Part shown: piece by piece, positions 311 through 22,855 of the stretch
Numbering within the stretch: position 1 is the stretch's first letter
Layout: each line of letters begins with the position of its first letter
Assembly (NCBI RefSeq): GCF_036242395.1
Contig: NZ_CP108458.1
Span: forward strand, 434,001-498,000
Reading direction: 5' to 3'
DNA: 64,000 nt
Source: Kitasatospora sp. NBC_01266
Lineage (GTDB): Bacteria; Actinomycetota; Actinomycetes; Streptomycetales; Streptomycetaceae
Made by a program: the position numbers and the translations under genes
Notes under the pieces: model-generated
Databases searched by the model: none
What the model was told of the DNA's origin: nothing
Seen by the model: the letters and a program-made list of their open reading frames with translations, nothing else

Positions 311-1077
311 CCCAGCCGCACGCCGAGCACACCGAGCACACCGAGACCTTCGCCGCCGCCGACGGAACTCCCCTGCCCCTGCACGTGTTCGTCCCCCAGG
401 GCGAGGCCAGGGCCGCCCTCCTGCTGTTCCACGGGGGCGGCTGGATGATCGGCTCGCCGGCCATGTTCTTCCCGCAGGCCAAGGCCCTGGCACAAGCCGG
501 CATCCTCACCGCCAGCGCCGGCTACCGGCTCATCGGAGCCGGTGCCGACAACCCCCTCGACTGCATGGCCGACGCCGAAAACGCCGACCGACTCTTCCGG
601 ACGATCGCAGCAGCCGCAGGTCTGGACTCGATCAGCGTCGGCGGCGGATCCGCAGGCGGCCAACTGGCATTCAGCCTGGCCACCTCACCCGCACGGCACT
701 ACGACAGCCTCGTACTGTTCAACCCCGCCCTGGACGCCTGCTGCGAAGGCGCAGCCATCGCCGACCTGCTCAAGGTCACGCCCCAGCAGGCCAGGGCGTT
801 CTCGCCACTGCACCACGTGCGCCCCGGCATGCCCCCCACCGTCATGTTCCACGGAACCGACGACCAACTCGTGCCGATCACCCTCGCCCGCCGCTTCCGC
901 CAGCTGATGACCGACACCGGCACGGAGTGCGAACTCGTCGAATTCCCCGGCGCGGGGCACGGCTTCTTCAACCACGACCCGAACGGCAACCCCGCCTACG
1001 ACACCGTCCTCGAACGAACCCGCGCCCACCTCTTGCGGACGGCGGGAAGACAGTGCCTTCGCCATCGATCGTGCTGA
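307..1077 (+). CDS. alpha/beta hydrolase, carboxylesterase/acetyl-esterase type
   Basis: A 256-residue cytoplasmic alpha/beta-hydrolase of the hormone-sensitive-lipase-like esterase type. Visible motifs are the oxyanion-hole HGGGW (residues 42-46), the nucleophile elbow GGGSAGG (Ser115), a probable acid in HGTDDQLVP (Asp185/186) and the catalytic His in AGHGFF (His218), in the right order and spacing for an active enzyme. The predicted reaction is hydrolysis of short-chain carboxylic esters. It overlaps the upstream GH3-like gene by 4 bp (ATGA), so the two are probably co-translated; an esterase beside a glycosidase suggests deacylation of sugar esters. The last ~10 residues (rich in Arg and Cys) look unlike the family and may come from a rearranged 3' end next to the transposase scar downstream. 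Confidence 0.85.
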   Translation: MTQPHAEHTEHTETFAAADGTPLPLHVFVPQGEARAALLLFHGGGWMIGSPAMFFPQAKALAQAGILTASAGYRLIGAGADNPLDCMADAENADRLFRTIAAAAGLDSISVGGGSAGGQLAFSLATSPARHYDSLVLFNPALDACCEGAAIADLLKVTPQQARAFSPLHHVRPGMPPTVMFHGTDDQLVPITLARRFRQLMTDTGTECELVEFPGAGHGFFNHDPNGNPAYDTVLERTRAHLLRTAGRQCLRHRSC

Positions 1078-1091
1078 TCGAAGGGGGAGGC

Positions 1092-1250
1092 GTGACGGCG
1101 ATCGCGGCGCGACGCGCGGAGCTGGACAGGCTCGAAGAGTAGCTGGCCGAGCAGCTCGATGTCCCCCCGTCGAACACGGCTTCGCCCACCTGAAGAACTG
1201 GCGGATCCTCACCAGGCTCCGCACCGACCCCGCCCACGACCAGCACGAGC
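1092..1250 (+). pseudogene. gene scars including a C-terminal fragment of an IS5-like transposase
   Basis: Two short non-functional pieces lie here. First, a GTG-initiated stretch reading VTAIAARRAELDRLEE meets TAG and then continues in frame as LAEQLD, as if a coiled-coil-like gene acquired a stop. Second, from about 1172, a frame reads HGFAHLKNWRILTRLRTDP, which closely resembles the conserved C-terminal segment of Streptomyces IS5-type DDE transposases (usually '...F.hLK.WRvLtklRtDP'). The frame then runs on into unrelated sequence. There is no full ORF. These are read as the residue of an old insertion that ended next to the esterase gene. The transposase match is by eye. Confidence 0.55.
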
Positions 1251-1328
1251 ACCCCGGAGAGCCGTCACGCCTGCCCCTCCGACCAGCACGTTCGAAGATG
1301 GCGAGGCTTCACTGAACCGCCGCCAGGC

Positions 1329-2693
1329 TCAGCGCACCCCGCAGGCCGCGAGCGCCCGGACCTGCGGCGCGGTCGGCTCGGCCGGGAAGTAGAGGTAGCA
1401 GATCCCACCGCTGCCCGAGGTCGCCACGCCTTCGGCATTCGTCCAACTGGTGCGCAGCCAGGCGTTCTCGAACTGGTGGCGCCGGTAGACGCGGCGCACC
1501 GCCTCGTCGGAGGGCGCGGCGGGATCGTTGGCGATGACGTCGCCGTCCGTGGTGAAGCCGATGACCGTCATGAGGTGTCCGGCGGTGCCGTAGCCCGCGC
1601 CGTCCAGTTCGCTCGGCAGGAAGCAGACGGAGGTGATGACCGGGATGCCGGCCAGGATCAGCGTCTCGGCGTCCGTCAGCGAGCGCAGTCGGGTGACGAC
1701 GGCCCGCAGGTCCGGGTAGGTCGCCGCGTAGGCGGCGTTGAACGGCCAGTTCCCGCAGCCCTGGTACTGGTAGTCGTAGGTGCCCCGGGCGGCCTGGCAG
1801 ACCTGCGGGTCCGGGTAGGCGGGGTCGACCCAGGCCAGGTCGGCGGGTGCGGGCGTGCGGCCCCAGTACGCGATGACCATCTGCGAGGAGGTGGGGCTGC
1901 ACCAGGCCTCACCGCCGCTGTCGTACCGCGGGTACTGGCCCTGGTGGGTCTCCTGCGAGTAGCGCGGTACGGGCAGTTCGCAGCCGGCGGCCGGGCCGGG
2001 GCCGGTGGCCGGCACCTCGGAGCGCTCGGGCAGGTCCGAGGTCAGCACGCCCAGCCGCCGGACCACGGGGGTGAGCGCGGTGCCGGGCCTGCGGTGGAGG
2101 GTGAGGCGCAGTTGGCAGGTGGCCAGGCGCAGGCCGCTCGCCGGGGTGTCGATGGCGAAGGTGTCGGTCCGGACGCTGCTCCTGCCGTCCTGCTGGCCGT
2201 CCACGCTGGTGCGGCGGATGTCCTGGTCCCCGGCGGCCCAACGGCCCATCACGTACCAGGGCGTGCGGGTCTCGTCGGGGTAGGCGCCGCGCAGCTCGAC
2301 GGCGATCCAGGTGCCCGCGGGCGCCTCGGCGTTCCAGGAGACCACGGCTTGGGTGGCCGCCACGGCGAGCGGACGTTCGGGCGAAGTCCAGCTCGCCCAC
2401 TCCCAGTCGGCGGTGGCACCGGTGTGCGGGTCGAGGTAGTCGGCGGTGCCGGCCGCCGCCTCGATCCGGAGTCCGGGCCGGGCCCCGCTCACCACCCCGG
2501 TGCCCAGTGCCTCGCCGTCGCCCCAGTCCGCGGCGGTGGTCCAGGCCTGGTAGGCGATCCCGTCGGCCTGCGCGTCCGCTGCCTGCCGCGCCAACCGGCT
2601 CGCGGTGGCGGCGAGAGCGCGGGGGGCGACGGCCGCGGCGGTGACGGCGGCGGAGGCGGCGAGCAGCGATCTGCGCGTAGTGGGGTCGGGCAC
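1329..2693 (-). CDS. secreted C39-type peptidase family protein (Tat signal)
   Basis: A 454-residue exported protein. The N-terminus TRRSLLAASAAVTAAA with twin Arg at 7-8 followed by a hydrophobic stretch and ALA looks like a Tat signal peptide. Residues ~45-235 form a beta-rich, carbohydrate-binding-like module. The C-terminal half carries a papain-like C39_2 domain: catalytic Cys265 in EAWCSPTSSQM, His373 in AGHLMTVIGF, and Asn/Asp389-390 in IANDPAAP. This architecture is frequent in streptomycetes and is annotated as peptidase C39 family protein; the natural substrate is unknown. It stands alone, convergent with the scarred region on its 3' side. Alternative: a cysteine amidase or transglutaminase-like enzyme of the same fold. 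Confidence 0.85.
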   Translation of the reverse strand: MPDPTTRRSLLAASAAVTAAAVAPRALAATASRLARQAADAQADGIAYQAWTTAADWGDGEALGTGVVSGARPGLRIEAAAGTADYLDPHTGATADWEWASWTSPERPLAVAATQAVVSWNAEAPAGTWIAVELRGAYPDETRTPWYVMGRWAAGDQDIRRTSVDGQQDGRSSVRTDTFAIDTPASGLRLATCQLRLTLHRRPGTALTPVVRRLGVLTSDLPERSEVPATGPGPAAGCELPVPRYSQETHQGQYPRYDSGGEAWCSPTSSQMVIAYWGRTPAPADLAWVDPAYPDPQVCQAARGTYDYQYQGCGNWPFNAAYAATYPDLRAVVTRLRSLTDAETLILAGIPVITSVCFLPSELDGAGYGTAGHLMTVIGFTTDGDVIANDPAAPSDEAVRRVYRRHQFENAWLRTSWTNAEGVATSGSGGICYLYFPAEPTAPQVRALAACGVR

Positions 2694-2796
2694 ACACTCT
2701 CAACGCGGCCGACCCCGTTGGGGTCACGGACAGCGGCCCGGATGCCTCACCTGGCGGATTCCCGGGGAGAAGCCGTTCCGCGACCCGTGGCCGCGG

Positions 2797-3570
2797 TCAG
2801 AAGCCGGTGAGGGTGGTCCTGCCGATGGCCGTGCCGGACTCCAGGATCCGGTGGGCCTGGCGGAGGTTGGCGGCGTTGATCGGGCCGAGGTCCTGGGTGG
2901 CGGTGGTGCTGAGGCGGCCGTCGTCCACCAGGCGCGCGATGCGGGTCAGGATGGTGTGCTGCATCGCCTGGTCCGGGGTCTGGAACGTGGAGCGGGTGTA
3001 CATGAACTCCCAGTGGAAGGAGGCGCTCTTCGCCTTGAGCGCGCCGATGTCGAGGGATTCGAAGTCGTCGATGGCGACGATCTGGCCGAACGGGTTGAGC
3101 GCGGCGGCGTAGGCCGCGAGGTTGCGGTCGGTGCCGGCCGTGCTGAAGACGTAGTCCACGCCGCCCGGTGCCACCGCGGCCAACTGCTCGGCGAGCGGCT
3201 GCCGGTGGTCGACCACGTGCTCGACTCCCATCCGGCGTGCGAAGGCGACGGTCTCCGGGCGGGAGGCGGTGCCGATCACGGTCAACCCGGTCAGGGCCCG
3301 CGCCAGTTGGGCCACGATCGAGCCGACGCCGCCGGCCGCGGCGGTCACCAGGAGCGCGCCGGTCCGGTCCACGGCTCCGTTGCGCAGGCCCATCCGGTCG
3401 AACAGGCCTTCCCAGGCGGTGAGGAAGGTGAGCGACAGGGCGTGGGCTGGCTGCGCCTGGTTTCTGCCCCGGCGGAGAAGGCCGGCGGCAAGCTCTGGGA
3501 GGGGCCGCAGGAGGCGGAGCGACTCATGCCTCCTGCGGGAGATGATCGATTCCAAGCCGTCAGTGGTCAT
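2797..3570 (-). pseudogene. zinc-type alcohol dehydrogenase / quinone oxidoreductase, 5' end lost next to IS982
   Basis: The reading frame has 257 codons, but only about residue 37 onward resembles the medium-chain dehydrogenase/reductase superfamily (ZDR/YogA-like). Visible are LTFLTAWEGLFDR, the Rossmann glycine motif AAAGGVGSIVAQLA, VIGTASRPET, GVDYVFSTAG and a typical C-terminal IARLVDDGRLST. The whole N-terminal GroES-like catalytic half (normally ~100 more residues) is missing. The first ~36 codons are unrelated sequence that reads through a hairpin and into the tip of the adjacent IS982 element. Without the substrate domain it is very unlikely to be active. I found no matching N-terminal half beyond the IS, so this is a deletion as well as an insertion. 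Confidence 0.75.
3505..3538. terminator. hairpin abutting the IS982 end
   Basis: An 11-bp perfect inverted repeat (CCGCAGGAGGC and its complement) with a 12-nt loop sits 2 bp outside the IS982 tip and inside the non-homologous start of the broken oxidoreductase. It looks like an intrinsic terminator stem without a strong T-tract, perhaps belonging to the locus disrupted by the insertion. Confidence 0.5.
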
Positions 3571-4496
3571 AGGCAGTCAGCGACCGCATGACGGGCTGGC
3601 CGGTGTGCTCGTTGTGCCAGACGGCGGCGGTCAGCGCGAGGATTCGCTGAAGCACGCGGACCATCACGCCGCCGGGGGTGCGGCCGCGGTGGCGTTCGAG
3701 GTCGAGCTGGCCCTTGAAGGTCTCGTTGATCGACTCGATGACCTGCCGCAACGGCTTGAACAGCTGTGATCCGGCCCATTCAGCCTCGCCCTTGCGGGCC
3801 GGACGCAGCAGTTCGATGTTCAGGTCGGCCAGTTGCGACTCGAACTCGCGGCCGAAGTAGTTCTTGTCGCCGATCAGCGTCTGTCCAGGTGGCCGGTCGG
3901 TGACGAGCGTGGGTTCGGTGGCGAAGATGTCGAGGAGTGTCTCGCGTTCGTCGGCCTTTGCCCCGGTCAGCGCGAACGTGATCGGCAGCCCGCCCATCGT
4001 GCACAGCAGGTGCAGCCGAAGTCCCCAGAAGTAGCGCGTGTGGCTGGCGCAGTAGCCGTACTGCGCCCATCCGGCCAAGTCGGAGCGCTTGACGGTCTCC
4101 CGGGAGCGACCGCACTCAACCGGTGTGGAGTCCACCACCCACACGTCGTCGGTCCACAGCGCGGTGTCCACGGCCAACTCGCGCATGACGTGCCGGATGA
4201 GCCCGACCGCCTTCCGCAGCCTCTTGTTGTAGCCGGGCTGCTTCGGCGGGTACGGGAACAGGTGCCTCAGGTGGACCCGGGCATGCCGGAGCCAACGGGC
4301 CTCGGAGGTGTAGCCGAGCATGGCCTGCATCATCGACAGCGTCACCAGTTCGGCATCGCTGAGCTGCGGCGAACCCATCAGCAGGTCGTCGGTCCTGACG
4401 TAGAGTGCGGTCGCGAGGGAGTCCATGTCTGGCGTCACAACCTGACTGTGGACTCCCTCGCCTCAGGCGCGCAGCCAACCCCTGGAATCGATCATC
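3541..4496 (-). mobile_element. insertion sequence of the IS982 family, apparently complete
   Basis: A ~956-bp element bounded by 14-bp perfect terminal inverted repeats, GATGATCGATTCCA at both tips, facing inward around a single transposase gene. The tip downstream of the transposase lies only a few bases after its stop codon, and the upstream tip about 58 bp before its start, as expected for IS982. No target-site duplication is obvious in the flanks, which fits the neighbouring deletion. A second, diverged copy of the upstream tip occurs about 1.2 kb further on. Confidence 0.85.
3560..4438 (-). CDS. IS982 family transposase
   Basis: A 292-residue DDE transposase. IS982 signatures are plain: LSDAELVTL and MLGYTSEARWLR near the N-terminus, WTDDVWVVDSTPVECGRSR (first Asp, ~103), LIGDKNYFGREFE (second Asp, ~191), IESINETFKGQLDLE (Glu, ~235), and the C-terminal VWHNEHTGQPV. 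All three catalytic positions are present and length is normal (about 280-295), so it may be active. The start is uncertain: the GTG used here, or the in-frame ATG four codons later that gives the more usual MDSLATAL beginning. It has separated a truncated oxidoreductase from a mycothiol-dependent enzyme gene. Confidence 0.93.
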   Translation of the reverse strand: MTPDMDSLATALYVRTDDLLMGSPQLSDAELVTLSMMQAMLGYTSEARWLRHARVHLRHLFPYPPKQPGYNKRLRKAVGLIRHVMRELAVDTALWTDDVWVVDSTPVECGRSRETVKRSDLAGWAQYGYCASHTRYFWGLRLHLLCTMGGLPITFALTGAKADERETLLDIFATEPTLVTDRPPGQTLIGDKNYFGREFESQLADLNIELLRPARKGEAEWAGSQLFKPLRQVIESINETFKGQLDLERHRGRTPGGVMVRVLQRILALTAAVWHNEHTGQPVMRSLTAYDH

Positions 4497-4553
4497 CGTT
4501 CGGTACGAGACAGTTCGCGATTCACCCGGCAGGCTGTACGCGCTGGCGTGTCG

Positions 4554-5336
4554 TCACGTCCAGTCCTCCGGTTCCCAGGCGAAGAGCAGGTCGAGCAACT
4601 CCCGGTCCCCGTCGAGTTGCAGGGAGTCCACCGAAATGCGGTCGTACCGCCAGAGGACCAGATCACTGGCCGTGCCGCGAATGGAGAGGCCTACCGCGTC
4701 CTGGTCCTCGCCGGCAGCGGGCAGCCGGGTGGTCCGTGCACCGTCGCCGTCGACCGTGAGGCGCCAGGAGCGGCCCTCGGTGGCGTGAAAGTCGAATGCG
4801 GTGGGCTTGTGCGGCCAGGCACTCCTCGTGAAGCTGCCGATGAACAGGCTCTCCTCGACACCGTCGAGCGCCACCTCGACAGGCAGTGAGGCCGAGTCGC
4901 CCACGGTGAGCTGGGCATCGTAGGTGTGCACCGCGATCTCCTGGACCTGGTGCCGGGCGACGCCACCGGCAGTGTGCGGCGTCTGCGTGACACCCCAGCC
5001 GGTGAAGCAGCCCTGGTCCGGACCGGCCTCCCGCAGGGCCGCCAGCATCAGCTCGGTCGAGGCCGCCAGCCAGGCCAGCACGGCCTCGCGTTCCTGCGGC
5101 GCGACCGCGTCACCCTGGGCCGGGGTCTTGGATGTGGCGTCCGGCCCGGCGGCGACGGTGGCGGCCCAGAGACGGCGGCGCTCGCCGATGTGCTGTACCA
5201 GGTCGGACAGCGTCCACTCGGGGCAGGTCGGCACCTGCACGTCGAGGCTGGGCGCGGCGGCGATCGCAGCACGGAAGGCGGTTGAACGTTCGTCGATCAG
5301 TCGCAACAGATCGGGAAACTCCAGAGTCTTGTGCAC
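4554..5336 (-). CDS. maleylpyruvate isomerase family mycothiol-dependent enzyme
   Basis: Predicted 260-residue member of the MDMPI/DinB-like superfamily, whose members use a metal and often mycothiol for thiol-dependent isomerisation or transfer. The N-terminal four-helix part contains PTCPEWTLSDLVQHIGE, with the first metal His, and GGVARHQVQEIAVHTYDAQ, with the expected E-x3-H metal pair; the C-terminal lobe (FDFHATEGRSWRLTV...) is the usual MDMPI_C beta domain. Substrate is unknown. I chose the GTG giving VHKTLEFPDLL; the frame is open a further ~95 codons upstream, but that extension is transposase-derived debris. The gene lies between the intact IS982 and a diverged IS tip, so it may have been carried or trapped by IS activity. 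Confidence 0.8.
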   Translation of the reverse strand: MHKTLEFPDLLRLIDERSTAFRAAIAAAPSLDVQVPTCPEWTLSDLVQHIGERRRLWAATVAAGPDATSKTPAQGDAVAPQEREAVLAWLAASTELMLAALREAGPDQGCFTGWGVTQTPHTAGGVARHQVQEIAVHTYDAQLTVGDSASLPVEVALDGVEESLFIGSFTRSAWPHKPTAFDFHATEGRSWRLTVDGDGARTTRLPAAGEDQDAVGLSIRGTASDLVLWRYDRISVDSLQLDGDRELLDLLFAWEPEDWT

Positions 5337-17930: not shown

Positions 17931-19064
17931 TCAGCCGCCGCCCGGCGGCCGGCGGGTCACCGCCAGCAGCGCCATGTCGTCGTCGCGCGGGCCGCCGGTC
18001 CACCACGCGACGTCCTCGGCCACGGCCTCCACCAGCTCCAGCGGCGACCCGTGCCACCCGAGGGTGGCCAGCCGCGGGGTGGGGTCGTAGAACTCCCCCG
18101 CGCTGTTCCTGGCCTCGGTCACCCCGTCGGTCACCAGCAGCAGCGTGTCCCCCGCCGCGAAGGGCCAGCTGTCGGCCACCGGGCGCGGGCCGCCGAGCGC
18201 GCCCATGCCCAGCGGCAGGCCGGGATCGCGGGCGTCCAGCCGGCTGACCAGTCCCCCGCCGCCCGGCAGCAGATAGGGCCCGGGGTGGCCGCAGTCGAGC
18301 AGCCGCAGCTCGTCGTGCTCGGGGTCGAACTCGCCGAGCAGCGCGGTGATGAAGCCCTCCATCCGCAGTTCCTCGCTGCCGTGCGCGACCTCGCGGATCA
18401 GGGTGTGCTCCACGGCGTCGGCGAGCGTGCACAGGTCGGGCTCCCGCTCGGCCGCCTCCCGGAAGGCTCCGAGCAGCACCGAGACGGCCCGCACCGCCTG
18501 CAGCCCCTTGCCCCGCACGTCCGCGATCATGACCCGGACGCCGAACGGGCTGTCCTGGACGGCATACGCGTCGCCACCGATCAGCGCCTCCGTCTGGGCC
18601 GAGCTGTAGTGGGTGCCCACGGCCAGCGGCCCGACCTCGGGCGGCGGGACGGGCAGCACGGCCTGCTGGGCCGTCCGGGCCACCGACCGCACCGTGCGCA
18701 ACCGGCGCCCGTGCCGGGCGACCACCTGGTTGACCCAGAGCCCGACGGCCACCGCGAAGAGCGTGTTCAGCAGTTCGAGGTAGCCGCTGTTGTTGCTGAC
18801 CGAGCCGTCGTGGGCGGTCAGCGCGAAGACCCCGAGGAAGATGGCGGCGCCGACGATCACGGTGCCCCGCAGCGAGAGCAGCGCGCCCGCCATCACGGCC
18901 GCCGCCGCCAGCATCGGGTCGCCCCAGTACTCGGTGGGTGCCTGGAAGTCCCAGATCAGCCCGCCGACGATCAGCGCCCACAGGGCGAGCCGGACGTGTC
19001 GGGGCACTCCTAAGGGCTTCGACGCCATGGCGACCATGCATCCCATCAGAGGGGCGGGGGCCAT
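17931..19064 (-). CDS. membrane PP2C/SpoIIE-type Ser/Thr protein phosphatase
   Basis: A 377-residue protein with about four transmembrane helices in residues 25-120 (VRLALWALIVGGLIW, MLAAAAVMAGALLSL, TVIVGAAIFLGVFAL, LLNTLFAVAVGLWVNQVV) and a cytoplasmic SpoIIE phosphatase domain: AQTEALIGGDAYAV, VMIADVRGKGLQAV, LDCGHPGPYLL, LLLVTDGVTEARN and RDDDMALLAV supply the metal-binding Asp residues. In streptomycetes such phosphatases act on anti-sigma-factor antagonists. There is no kinase or anti-anti-sigma partner next door, so the target is unknown. Confidence 0.9.
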   Translation of the reverse strand: MAPAPLMGCMVAMASKPLGVPRHVRLALWALIVGGLIWDFQAPTEYWGDPMLAAAAVMAGALLSLRGTVIVGAAIFLGVFALTAHDGSVSNNSGYLELLNTLFAVAVGLWVNQVVARHGRRLRTVRSVARTAQQAVLPVPPPEVGPLAVGTHYSSAQTEALIGGDAYAVQDSPFGVRVMIADVRGKGLQAVRAVSVLLGAFREAAEREPDLCTLADAVEHTLIREVAHGSEELRMEGFITALLGEFDPEHDELRLLDCGHPGPYLLPGGGGLVSRLDARDPGLPLGMGALGGPRPVADSWPFAAGDTLLLVTDGVTEARNSAGEFYDPTPRLATLGWHGSPLELVEAVAEDVAWWTGGPRDDDMALLAVTRRPPGGG

Positions 19065-19187: not shown

Positions 19188-21296
19188 CTACCGGACGCGC
19201 AGGGCCTCGGCGAGCCCGCTCGGCACCGGGGCGTAGCCGGCGGGCCGGGTGGTGAAGGTGCCCCGGCCCTGGGTGCGCCCGCGCAGCCGGGTCGCGTAGC
19301 CGAACAGCTCGGCCAGCGGCACCGTCGCGGTGACCTGCGCCGTGCCGCCGCGCGCCGCCTGGCTCGAGACCCGGCCGCGACGGGCCGCCAGGTCGCCGAG
19401 CACCACGCCCACGGCGTCCTCCGGCACCGTGACCGTGACCTCGGCCATCGGCTCCAGCAGCGCCAGCTCAGCGGCCCGCAGCGCCGCCCGCAGCGCGAAC
19501 CGGCCCGCCGTGCGGAATGCCAACTCCGAGGAGTCCTTGCTGTGCGTCGCCCCGTCGGTCAGGGTGACCCGCAGCCCGGTCACCGGATAGCCCCCGAGCG
19601 GCCCTTCGAGCAGGGCGTCCCGGCAGCCGGCTTCCACCGCCCGCACGTACTCCTGCGGCACCCGGCCACCGACCACGGTGGAGCCGAACGCGAACTCCGC
19701 CGCACCGGCCGCCCCCTCGGCGGTCTCGCCCGGGTCGGCGGCCAGCGGTGCCACGTCGATGACGACGTGCGCGAACTGCCCGGCGCCGCCGTCCTGCTTG
19801 ACGTGCCGGTACACCAGACCGGTGACGCCGCGCACGACGGTCTCCCGGTAGGACACCTGCGGCCGGCCGACGCCCACCTCCACCCCGTGGGCGCGCCGGA
19901 GCTTCTCCACCGCGACCTCCAGGTGCAGCTCGCCCATCCCCGACAGCACCGTCTGCCCGGTCTCGGGGTCGGTGCGGACCACCAGCGAGGGGTCCTCCTC
20001 GACCAGCCGGGCCAGCGCCGAGGCCAGCCGCTCGGTGTCGCCGCTCCGGCGGGCCTCGACGGCCACCGAGACGACCGGATCGGCCACCGTCGGCGGCTCC
20101 AGCAGCAGCGGGGCCGACGGCGTGCAGAGGGTGGCACCGGCGCGGGCGGCCTTCGGTCCGACCACCGCGACGATGTCCCCGGCCACCGCCCGCTCCACCT
20201 CGAAGTGGCGGTCGGCCTGCACGCGCAGGATCCGCGCGATCCGCTCGGTTCGCCTCGCGCCCACGTCCTGCACCACCTCTCCCTTGCCCAGCGTTCCCGA
20301 GTACACCCGCAGGAAGGTCAGCCGACCGGTCGGCGCCGCCTGCACCTTGAAGACCAGCGCCGCGAACGGCTGCGCCGGATCGGCCGGCCGCTGCTGCTCG
20401 TCCGAACCCGCGGTGCCGCGCACCGGCGGCAGGTCGAGCGGCGAGGGCAGGTAGGCCACGGCGGCGTCCAGCAGCGGCTCGATCCCCCGGTTGCGGTACG
20501 CGGAGCCGCAGAGCACCACGACACCCGCGCCGGTGCGGGTCAGCTCGCGCAGCGCCGCGCTGAGCGTGGGCTCCGTGAGGGCCGAGGTGGCGCAGAACTC
20601 CTCCAGCGCCACCGGGTCCAGCTCCGCCACCGCCTCCTCCAGCAGGTGGCGCCGCCGGGCGGCCTCCTCGGCCAGGGCGTCCGGCACCGGGCCCTCGGTG
20701 ACGGTGCTCTTACCGTCGGCCCAGACCAGGGCGCGCATCCGGACCAGGTCGACCACTCCGGTGAAGCCTTCCTCCCGGCCGATCGGCAGCTGGACCACCA
20801 GCGGGACGGTGCCCAGCCGCTCCCGGATCGAGGCGACCGCGCTGTCCAGCTCCGCCCCGACCCGGTCCAGCTTGTTGACGAAGGCGATCCGCGGCACCCC
20901 GTGCCGGTCGGCCTGCCGCCACACCGACTCGCTCTGCGGCTCGACCCCGGCGACGGCGTCGAACACCGCGATCGCGCCGTCCAGCACGCGCAGCGAACGC
21001 TCGACCTCGTCGGCGAAGTCCACGTGGCCGGGGGTGTCGATCAGGTTGACCCGGTGACCGTCCCAGTCGCAGCTGACCGCCGCGGCGAAGATGGTGATCC
21101 CGCGTTCGCGCTCCTGCGGGTCGAAGTCGGTGACGGTCGTGCCGTCATGGACCTCACCGCGCTTGTGCGTGTTGCCGGCCAGGAACAGGATCCGCTCGGT
21201 GACGGTGGTCTTGCCCGCGTCGACGTGCGCGAGGATCCCCAGATTGCGCACGGTGGCAAGGGGGTTGAAGGTGTTCGGGGGCAGGTTGGTACGCAC
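19188..21296 (-). CDS. elongation factor G paralogue (translational GTPase)
   Basis: A 702-residue EF-G-like GTPase. G1 is AHVDAGKTT (23-31), G2 RGITI (65-69), G3 DTPGH (87-91), G4 NKLD (141-144), G5 GSAYRN. Domain IV keeps the functional tip [10 protein letters not shown] and domain V the pattern [13 protein letters not shown]. The HVDAGKTT form and isolation from rpsL/rpsG/tuf show this is not the housekeeping fusA but a paralogue, like the fusB type of streptomycetes. It may translocate ribosomes under special conditions or protect against an EF-G or ribosome inhibitor; both are inference. It is preceded by a 330-nt leader with its own small ORF and hairpins, suggesting induction by translational stress. 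Confidence 0.9.
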
Positions 21297-21349
21297 GGCC
21301 GATGGCCTTTCCTGGTGTTCCGCATGAGGGCGGCGCGACTTCCCGGGCG

Positions 21350-21460
21350 CTGCGGCCTTCGGTCAGGCCGTCTCGCAGATCCCGACCCCGGCGCCAACCA
21401 GCGGGCAGGGGTCAGGACTTCGCCACGGGACTCCGGTGCCAACCGCGCAGCGGGCACCGG
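21350..21460 (-). promoter_or_regulatory. attenuator-like leader with three hairpins upstream of the EF-G paralogue
   Basis: Three stems lie in the transcribed leader: CCGGTGCC/GGCACCGG (21433-21460, inside the leader ORF), GACCCC/GGGGTC (21384-21413, containing the leader stop region), and CTGCG...CGCAG with inner GGCCT/AGGCC (21350-21378), the last nearest to the EF-G start. Two of them share the repeated element GGTTGGC(A/G)CCGG(A/G)GTC in the mRNA sense, so alternative pairing is possible. Confidence 0.6.
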
Positions 21461-21528
21461 AGGGGCGAGGACACCAGAATCACCTCGGAGAGCGAGGAGG
21501 GGACGACGACAGCGATGCGGTCACGCAT
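21412..21528 (-). CDS. leader peptide upstream of the EF-G paralogue
   Basis: A 38-codon ORF beginning MRDRIAVVVPSSLSEV and ending HRSPVAKS. Its ATG is preceded by GAGAGGGGGGA at ideal spacing, stronger than that of the downstream gene. It ends 115 bp before the EF-G start and overlaps two of the leader hairpins. It contains rare-in-short-peptide features for attenuation (three successive Val codons, two Ser pairs), but no obvious biosynthetic amino-acid run, so ribosome stalling by a drug or EF-G shortage is the likelier trigger. No homologue is known to me. Confidence 0.6.
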   Translation of the reverse strand: MRDRIAVVVPSSLSEVILVSSPLRCPLRGWHRSPVAKS

Positions 21529-21658
21529 GGCTGGTCCCCCCTCTCATCGCGGGCGCACCGCCGCTCGGTTGGGCGGTGCGCGATCTGGAGGCGAGTGTAG
21601 GCAGGCCCGCGCGGCCACCGAAAGCGAAATAGCGTCCGGGTCCTGACGGGCCGACGGC

Positions 21659-22855
21659 TCAGCCGCGGCGCGACAGCGCCTCGCAGAGCCGGTCGATCTC
21701 CTCCTCGGTGTTGTAGTAGTGCACGGAGGCGCGCACCAGCGAGGCGAGCCCGCGGGCCTCGAGGTCCCAGCGGGCGGAAGTCACCACCGAGACCGACACG
21801 TTGATCCGCTCCGCCTGCAGTTCCTCGGCGATCCGGTGGCTGTCCCGGCCGTCGACGGTGAAGGAGACGATGCCGCTGAGCCGGGTCCCGCGATCCCGCA
21901 CGAGCACCCCGGGCAGGGCGCGCAGGCGCTGCCGCAGGGTGTCGGCGAGCTGGGTGACGCGGGCCTCGATGGCGTCCAGGCCCAGGTCGAGGGCGTAGTC
22001 GACGGCGACCCCGAGGCCGATCTTCCCGGCGTAGGAGGTCTCCCAGCTCTCGAAGCGGCGGGCGTCCGCGCGCACCTGGTAGCTGTCGGCGCCGGTCCAG
22101 GTCGCGGCGTGCAGGTCGAGGAACGGCGGTTCCAGGTGCTCGCGGATGCGCGGTGAGCAGTAGAGGAACCCGGTGCCGCGCGGGCCGCGCAGGAACTTGC
22201 GGCCGGTCGCGGTGAGCAGGTCGCAGCCGATCTCGCCGACGTCGACCGGCAGTTGGCCGACCGACTGGCAGGCGTCGAGCAGGTAGGTGATGCCCGCCTC
22301 GCGGGCGACCTTGCCGATCTCGACCGCCGGGTTGACCAGGCCGCCCTGGGTGGGGACGTGGGTGACGGCGATCAGCTTGACCCGCTCGTCGATCAACTCC
22401 CGCAGGGCGTCGACGTCCAGCGCGCCGCTCTCGTCGTCGGGCACCACCTCGACCTGGACGCCGTGCCGGCGGGCGGTCTGCAGCAGGGCGATCGCGTTGC
22501 TGGCGTACTCGGCCCGCGCGGTCAGGATCCGGTCGCCCGGGGCCCAGGGCAGCGAGTAGAAGCCCATGTCCCAGGCCCGGGTGGCGTTCTCCACCACCGC
22601 GATGTCCTCCCGGGCGGCGCCCACCAGCCGGGCCAGCGCGTCATAGGTGTGCTCCAGGCGATCGGCCCGCTCGGCGGCGGCCTCGTAGCCGCCGATCTCC
22701 TCCTCCAGTCGCAGGTGCTCCACCACCGCGTCCACCACCGGGCGGGGCGACAGGGCGGCCCCGGCATTGTTCAGGTGCGTGACCCGCTCGCAGCCCGCCG
22801 TGTCCCGGCGCACCCGCTCGACATCGATTCCCGTCATCCCCGCCATCCCCACCAC
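21659..22855 (-). CDS. class V aminotransferase-fold PLP-dependent enzyme
   Basis: A 398-residue PLP enzyme of the class V group (cysteine desulfurase / isopenicillin N epimerase-like). It has HLNNAGAALSP near residue 27, VENATRAW, AEYASNAIALLQ, VTHVPTQGGLVNPAVEIG, DACQSVGQLPVD with the cofactor Asp, and the Schiff-base Lys220 in TATGRKFLRGPRGTGFLY. There is no clear mobile-loop desulfurase Cys, which argues for a lyase, epimerase or aminotransferase. Substrate is unknown. The start is uncertain; MTGIDVERV six codons in is plausible. Confidence 0.87.
   Translation of the reverse strand: MVGMAGMTGIDVERVRRDTAGCERVTHLNNAGAALSPRPVVDAVVEHLRLEEEIGGYEAAAERADRLEHTYDALARLVGAAREDIAVVENATRAWDMGFYSLPWAPGDRILTARAEYASNAIALLQTARRHGVQVEVVPDDESGALDVDALRELIDERVKLIAVTHVPTQGGLVNPAVEIGKVAREAGITYLLDACQSVGQLPVDVGEIGCDLLTATGRKFLRGPRGTGFLYCSPRIREHLEPPFLDLHAATWTGADSYQVRADARRFESWETSYAGKIGLGVAVDYALDLGLDAIEARVTQLADTLRQRLRALPGVLVRDRGTRLSGIVSFTVDGRDSHRIAEELQAERINVSVSVVTSARWDLEARGLASLVRASVHYYNTEEEIDRLCEALSRRG

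Follow-up and report, generated by a model that had tools for sequence, protein, structure and literature searches.

A conserved upstream open reading frame and structured leader before the fusB-type EF-G gene of Kitasatospora sp. NBC_01266 and its relatives: a candidate translational attenuator

Introduction

Many actinobacteria keep a second EF-G, which the relevant passage of PMC7157823 discusses together with genes activated by WblC in response to translation inhibitors. How the synthesis of such a spare EF-G is controlled is the question raised by a locus of Kitasatospora sp. NBC_01266, whose leader had been read in a preliminary description as a translation-sensing attenuator. Here we describe a comparative analysis of this leader in the window (the whole stretch of 64,000 nucleotides that was analysed; contig NZ_CP108458.1, positions 434,001 to 498,000) and in related genomes. 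An upstream open reading frame (uORF) and a structured leader are present before the EF-G paralogue, and comparison of the sequences identifies the uORF core, the first hairpin, the helix P3 and an element shortly upstream of the EF-G start as the conserved parts. The genes and signals of the locus are the following.

19188 to 21296, minus strand: EF-G paralogue (fusB type), 702 amino acids, GTG start at 21296 (open reading frame and TIGR00484)
21306 to 21313, minus strand: Shine-Dalgarno sequence of EF-G, AGGAAAGG (read from the sequence)
21412 to 21528, minus strand (21528-21412): uORF of 38 codons with ATG start, MRDRIAVVVPSSLSEVILVSSPLRCPLRGWHRSPVAKS (open reading frame; homologous uORF in 71/71 fusB-type loci)
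21469 to 21486, minus strand: uORF core codons Glu15-Val-Ile-Leu-Val-Ser20 (codon table of 60 leaders)
21536 to 21545, minus strand: Shine-Dalgarno sequence of the uORF, GAGAGGGGGG (sequence; possible 5' strand of a tentative hairpin with uORF codons 9-13)
21594 to 21599, minus strand: -10-like hexamer TACACT of the leader promoter (sequence)

The EF-G protein scores 783.6 bits against the NCBIfam EF-G model TIGR00484 (cutoff 659.4) and is a paralogue: the same genome has another EF-G gene, with 52% identity to it. Its putative orthologue is likely fusB (SCO6589), which comes first, before tetM, fusA and SCO1528, among the EF-G examples that the passage in PMC7157823 gives for WblC-activated genes and their paralogues; that passage is silent on which ones WblC activates, and activation of tetM is stated elsewhere. 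Since the putative orthologue is named there with the WblC response, the EF-G of the window would be one that copes with inhibitors. The gene is followed downstream by a SpoIIE-type phosphatase gene (17931-19064, minus strand), and a gene resembling class-V aminotransferases and cysteine desulfurases (21659-22855, minus strand) lies upstream of the leader on the same strand.

Loci and genomes compared

Loci were collected by searches with the EF-G protein, regardless of whether a leader was present, and those with 71-85% identity were taken as the fusB type. The first search gave 28 loci in 41 genomes, window included, of which 27 were used (L028 comes without upstream DNA); the second gave 17 new loci from 50 genomes, all without the exact core pattern; the third gave 14 loci of 120 genomes and the fourth 13 loci of 249 genomes. 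The resulting 71-locus set leaves out L028 and split or partial fusB-like matches in G009, G036 and G153. One in-frame TGA or TAG was seen in the fusB-type matches of several relatives (L014, L019, L020, L287, L298 and others), perhaps just past the true gene end.

Removal of near-copies reduced 70 leaders to 60 diverse ones. Comparisons of native with species-swapped strands and measurements of distance used 66 of the 70 (L005, L024, L137 and L300 have no called EF-G start), the P4 analysis 58 of the 60 (without L024 and L300), and the computation of opening costs 56 of these 58 (leaders above 480 nt left out). One further leader set comprised 190 of 206 leaders, those above 420 nt being left out.

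Distribution of the leader

Conservation of the uORF, on which the preliminary description had staked its reading, extends to every locus: all 71 fusB-type loci with upstream DNA, window included, carry the uORF and the leader. The uORF core was found in 27/27, 17/17, 13/14 and 13/13 loci of the four sets, and the one miss (L287) has its leader 1.2 kb upstream, where the covariance model alone found it (115.8 bits).

The covariance model R1 gave no match at E values up to 1 in 12 loci of other EF-G genes (L029, L030, L138-L147). Over 27 whole genomes, with 129 first-look candidates scored per genome, it gave one strong match in each of seven (E 1.2e-16 or better), and all seven sit before a fusB-type gene; five of these genomes had supplied leaders to the model (not G287 and G687). 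There was no strong match in the other 20 genomes, 18 of which had no fusB-type match in the first, second or fourth protein search. A second, weak R1 match (G443:C60:401053-401168; 29 bits, E 0.005) was seen away from the fusB contig of its genome.

Of 297 family genomes, 99 contain the exact core pattern; the reversed pattern, used as a control, matched none. The hosts among the matches listed are mostly Streptomyces, and also Kitasatospora, Catenulispora, Nocardia, Labedaea, Kribbella, Nonomuraea and a Microbispora MAG. Leader-bearing relatives span several actinobacterial orders. Of the 120 listed stretches 80 were read: EF-G lies downstream in 73, three are too short and four were taken as chance. 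The exact-pattern matches L064, L088, L092, L109 and L148 were rejected as leaders; no EF-G comes after them, and they were taken as chance.

The uORF and its promoter

The 38-codon reading frame that had been noticed ahead of the EF-G paralogue is present, with a good ribosome site (GAGAGGGGGG). In the 60 diverse leaders its core has the consensus (Y/F)(E/D)VI(L/P)VS, which in the window corresponds, from the E/D position, to residues 15-20. The codons are conserved as well as the amino acids. The first core valine is GTG in 60/60 leaders (GTG usage in these EF-G genes is 45%) and the second in 58/60; the core serine (21471-21469, minus strand) is TCT in 35 and TCC in 25 of the 60 and never TCG or AGC, whereas TCT makes up 2% of the serine codons in the EF-G genes. 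A partner whose pairing would explain the preference for TCT was looked for and none was found. Such conserved codons and peptide could mark a stall site, the stall itself being predicted. NCBIfam gave no match for four uORF peptides.

The reading frame after the core is not kept. Four leaders (L285, L286, L289, L290) read the hairpin P1 in another frame, and four others (L124, L126, L133, L136) have a TGA stop in place of a Cys codon, within P1. The hairpin is kept in both groups; the facing strand TCA restores the pairs in L124 and L136, and pairs are not restored in L126 and L133. At the other end of the uORF, its Shine-Dalgarno sequence may pair with codons 9-13 (GGGGA:UUCCC), a tentative hairpin with some covariation and a native-versus-swapped count of 248/5000.

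Promoter boxes of the WblC type are enriched upstream of the leaders, as judged by pattern counts. In the part of PMC7157823 that concerns it, the WblC motif is described as GAAAWY, located upstream of the -35 element at a distance of 3 nt. With promoter spacing to a following TANNNT, this box occurs in 28/60 leaders (mean 0.0 in 50 resamplings), and a relaxed pattern ending in TANNNT in 46/60 (0.2 in resampled sequence). The promoter of the window matches neither the strict nor the relaxed pattern because its upstream box is missing.

RNA structure of the leader

The structural parts of the window leader, some of them proposed, are listed below in order of transcription.

21433 to 21460, minus strand: P1 hairpin, CCGGTGCC / GGCACCGG (paired cells and covariation)
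21444 to 21448, minus strand: P1 loop GCGCG, 5' strand of the proposed P2 (GCNGCGC(G/C) in 60/60 leaders)
21421 to 21430, minus strand: P3 5' strand TCCCG-T-GGCG, inside the uORF (sequence; native versus swapped strands; L287)
21384 to 21413, minus strand: second hairpin with the repeat copy GGTTGGCGCCGGGGTC (window-specific; such a copy in 1/57 leaders)
21341 to 21349, minus strand: P3 3' strand CGCCCGGGA, adjoining the element (basis as for the 5' strand)
21333 to 21338, minus strand: element TCGCGC, 3' strand of P2, shared with P4 (sequence search over leader loci)
21328 to 21337, minus strand: candidate P4 5' strand CGCGC-C-GCCC (post-element with pre-start segment, native versus swapped 0/5000, small effect)
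21292 to 21301, minus strand: candidate P4 3' strand CGGC-C-GTGCG, over the EF-G start codon (native versus swapped; codon 2 CGN)

The first stem covaries, as had been asked of a functional leader. Its strands (CCGGUGCC...GGCACCGG) are paired in 91.3% of cells, both-sided changes occur in 6 of 10 pairs (a number reached by 6/500 shuffles), and the covariation score is 0.237 against 0.124 in shuffles (0/500 as high) and at most 0.073 when the strands are slid. The P1 region is more stable than its shuffles (mean z -2.0), and RNAalifold on the aligned blocks returned P1 alone. The distance from the uORF core to the P1 loop is exactly 35 nt in 49/60 leaders and 36-38 nt in the remaining 11; counted from the first base of the Ser20 codon, P1 begins 11 nt further on. 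With this spacing the foot of P1 would therefore lie at the front edge of a ribosome that has Val19 in its P site.

P3 joins a 5' strand after P1 to a 3' strand directly before the element (in the window UCCCG-U-GGCG with CGCCCGGGA). Native strands pair at -15.1 kcal/mol and species-swapped ones at -12.3 kcal/mol (0/5000, in permutations that do not correct for relatedness); the strands of P1 likewise pair better native than swapped, and four other pairs of leader regions gave no native-versus-swapped signal (681 to 4748 of 5000). By contiguous length the P3 signal is moderate: at least 7 bp in 37/60 native leaders against 32% of swapped pairs, and at least 5 bp in 56/60 against 81%. In wider windows P3 kept a z of -0.47 (SE 0.13) and other new signals were not obtained. 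The strands of P3 in L287 are an exact 11-bp complement across a 1.2-kb spacer. This spacer (L287:210-1430) has grown inside P3, which is intact, and consists of degenerate repeats and an assembly gap.

Over 256 leader loci the element YYGCGC takes the form TCGCGC 245 times, in 209 unique leaders, and is TTGCGC or CCGCGC in the remaining 11. Because the element was located by its own sequence, part of its occurrence follows from the way it was sought; this does not apply to its distance from the EF-G start, which has a median of 44 nt (quartiles 43-46, range 35-81; 66 leaders). In 60/60 leaders the P1 loop, GCGC(G/C), and the element are complementary, and the element variants put U or C at the first two bases, which keeps G-C or G-U pairs. 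The loop may capture the element in a helix, P2, which shows little covariation because it is nearly invariant; a match of 5-6 bp between conserved GC-rich segments could also arise by chance. P1, P2 and P3 together would form an H-type pseudoknot whose last loop contains a helix.

A competing helix, P4, may pair the element and the bases after it with bases of the EF-G start codon and of the stretch preceding it. The native-versus-swapped comparison weakly supports it: the count is 0/5000 for the outer part and 4/5000 for the whole, with a small effect (z -0.30, SE 0.12). The pairs are GCCC:GGGC in many loci and GUCC:GGAC in L285, L286, L287 and L293, and a good P4 is absent from several loci. 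EF-G codon 2 is CGN in 63/66 loci, though the residues after it vary. P2 and P4 would be mutually exclusive because both use the element. With the element masked, the computed cost of opening the EF-G ribosome site is 11.1 kcal/mol, against 12.1 kcal/mol unmasked; element capture lowers the opening cost by 0.9 kcal/mol and is favourable in 43/56 leaders, and part of this effect is also obtained when other 6-nt stretches are masked (11.5 and 11.9).

The window leader (21600-21270) folds better than 100/100 dinucleotide shuffles (z -4.0). P3 is absent from its own minimum-energy fold, in which the core is paired with the EF-G ribosome site; relatives give 681/5000 for that pairing, with no native-versus-swapped signal, and it was rejected. 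Three further candidates were also discarded: a pairing of the post-element segment with the EF-G Shine-Dalgarno sequence (1071/5000), a small hairpin at the EF-G ribosome site (2981/5000), and a GUGAU:AUCGC pairing whose variants, judged by eye, show no compensation. Rfam returned no match in the window at gathering scores, and at E values up to 10 mir-24 alone (15.8 bits; gathering score 50).

The preliminary description rested in part on a repeat, GGTTGGC(A/G)CCGG(A/G)GTC. The repeat is real in the window (GGTTGGCACCGGAGTC at 21444-21429, GGTTGGCGCCGGGGTC at 21399-21384). Its second copy is found in 1/57 leaders, the window's own, so that the repeat and the second hairpin are local and a switch based on the repeat pair was rejected as the mechanism. 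What stands of the attenuator reading is the conserved uORF, the covarying P1 and the WblC-type boxes; in place of the repeat-built hairpins, the relatives favour the pseudoknot of P1, P2 and P3.

Proposed mechanism and alternatives

The model is built on what comparison of the relatives has shown, i.e., the uORF core, P1, P3, the loop and element sequences, the near-fixed spacing, the link to fusB-type EF-G and the WblC-type box. To these it adds the predicted parts: P2, P4, the stalling and its direction, and the inducing drugs. We hold it about an even chance that the leader is a translational attenuator in which a stall permits the pseudoknot and EF-G is made. Under inhibition the ribosome would slow or stall on the VILV|S codons, its P site holding Val19, its A site Ser20 and its front edge lying at the first pair of P1, and would therefore leave P1 and P3 free to form. 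The P1 loop would then capture the YYGCGC element (P2) and bar it from P4, so that the EF-G start would be open and synthesis on. In the unstressed cell the ribosome would complete the uORF and break the pseudoknot, because the last codons of the window uORF contain P1 and the 5' strand of P3; the element would be freed and P4 would cover the EF-G start. A uORF without any ribosome would likewise give the on state. The direction of the switch is a reasoned choice and not a result, because the computed gain is small (0.9 kcal/mol).

The decision might instead fall in transcription. The uORF and pseudoknot would then control whether transcription ends ahead of the EF-G gene (by RNA polymerase, or by Rho loaded on the C-rich spacer), a mode of control like that of wblC and the ARE-ABCF genes. 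For Streptomyces the passages concerned describe the wblC leader, and terminator/anti-terminator folds for tiaA and are5sc (PMC11550727, PMC12421871), and the spacer is well folded (mean z -2.2, 58 leaders) and has more C than G in 34/39 leaders. An intrinsic terminator with a U tract was rejected: a T5 run between P1 and the EF-G ribosome site occurs in 0/58 leaders, and the window leader has no terminator-like site. The tight distance of the element from the EF-G start also speaks against transcription attenuation, and we rate it as possible but rather unlikely.

It is less probable still that the leader is a mechanical sensor of translocation, with P1, P2 and P3 held at the mRNA entry of a ribosome at Val19/Ser20. 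The pseudoknot being placed there, the step sensed would be the job of EF-G itself, driving the ribosome into the pseudoknot. When EF-G activity is too low, the pseudoknot would survive and the spare EF-G would be translated; when it suffices, ribosomes would plough through and switch synthesis off. If true, this would be a feedback loop on translocation power.

Autogenous control would have the pseudoknot bound by EF-G, by a ribosomal protein or by some other factor, with the uORF serving just to keep it open. This would suit the invariant loop GCNGCGC and a structured domain adjoining the ribosome site; it leaves the codon-level conservation of VILVS and the near-fixed distance from core to P1 unexplained and is improbable. 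Still more doubtful is a pausing or frameshift-like device, with P1 mainly slowing the uORF ribosome and mRNA stability as the outcome: P1 does start 11 nt after the first base of Ser20, roughly the position expected of a barrier at the mRNA entry, but P3 and the element would need another role. That the uORF product functions as a small protein, the RNA features being incidental, is hardly credible, for all the amino acid conservation of (Y/F)(E/D)VI(L/P)VS, given that its C-terminal half shifts frame or is cut by a stop while P1 is kept, that codon choice is constrained, and that genuine leaders precede fusB-type EF-G wherever the downstream DNA is long enough.

Conserved and, in the genomes searched, found only before fusB-type EF-G, the leader suggests that this gene is gated in translation too, by the progress of ribosomes. 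If the translational attenuator is real, it would provide a simple reporter of translocation stress and a way to study how producers of antibiotics live with inhibitors of the ribosome.

Comparison with known systems

The proposed P1-P2-P3 layout near a ribosome site resembles the preQ1-II riboswitch, an H-type pseudoknot with an extra helix before the loop-pairing strand that also lies near the ribosome site; the riboswitch differs in being controlled by a ligand and having no uORF. The stall motif of ErmCL is IFVI, with Ser next. The family described here does not have this motif, and its consensus VILV|S is a likeness at most. The leader shares with ermC/ErmCL a uORF before a ribosome-related resistance gene; unlike it, the window leader is proposed to form a pseudoknot that involves an element close to the start codon, its target is EF-G and not a methylase, and its stalling is predicted. 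In the part of PMC10219788 on ermC, stalling on the uORF is described as exposing the main Shine-Dalgarno sequence.

Among actinobacterial systems, wblC/whiB7 also has a uORF that reads translation inhibition, within the same stress response; wblC is described, in the passages concerned, with a Rho-independent terminator, whereas the fusB-type leaders lack a T run (PMC11550727, PMC7157823). The leaders of tiaA and are5sc of S. coelicolor are likewise conserved, drug-induced uORFs before translation-factor resistance genes; according to the relevant part of PMC12421871 they encode very short peptides (MLV, MVGDDDISG), without likeness to the peptide reported here, and act by a terminator/anti-terminator. 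The uORF of topAI of E. coli, as presented in the passage on it, senses several classes of ribosome-targeting antibiotics and belongs to another gene in another phylum (PMC12121999). No report of the fusB leader was found in the open literature searched, most subscription journals lying outside the search. Attenuators with a uORF before translation-stress genes are thus an already known kind, and what is new here is that a pseudoknot is proposed, that P1 is independent of the reading frame and that the target is EF-G. If the model is true, this would be the first example, within the set of leaders compared, of a uORF attenuator with a pseudoknot beside the ribosome site of an EF-G gene.
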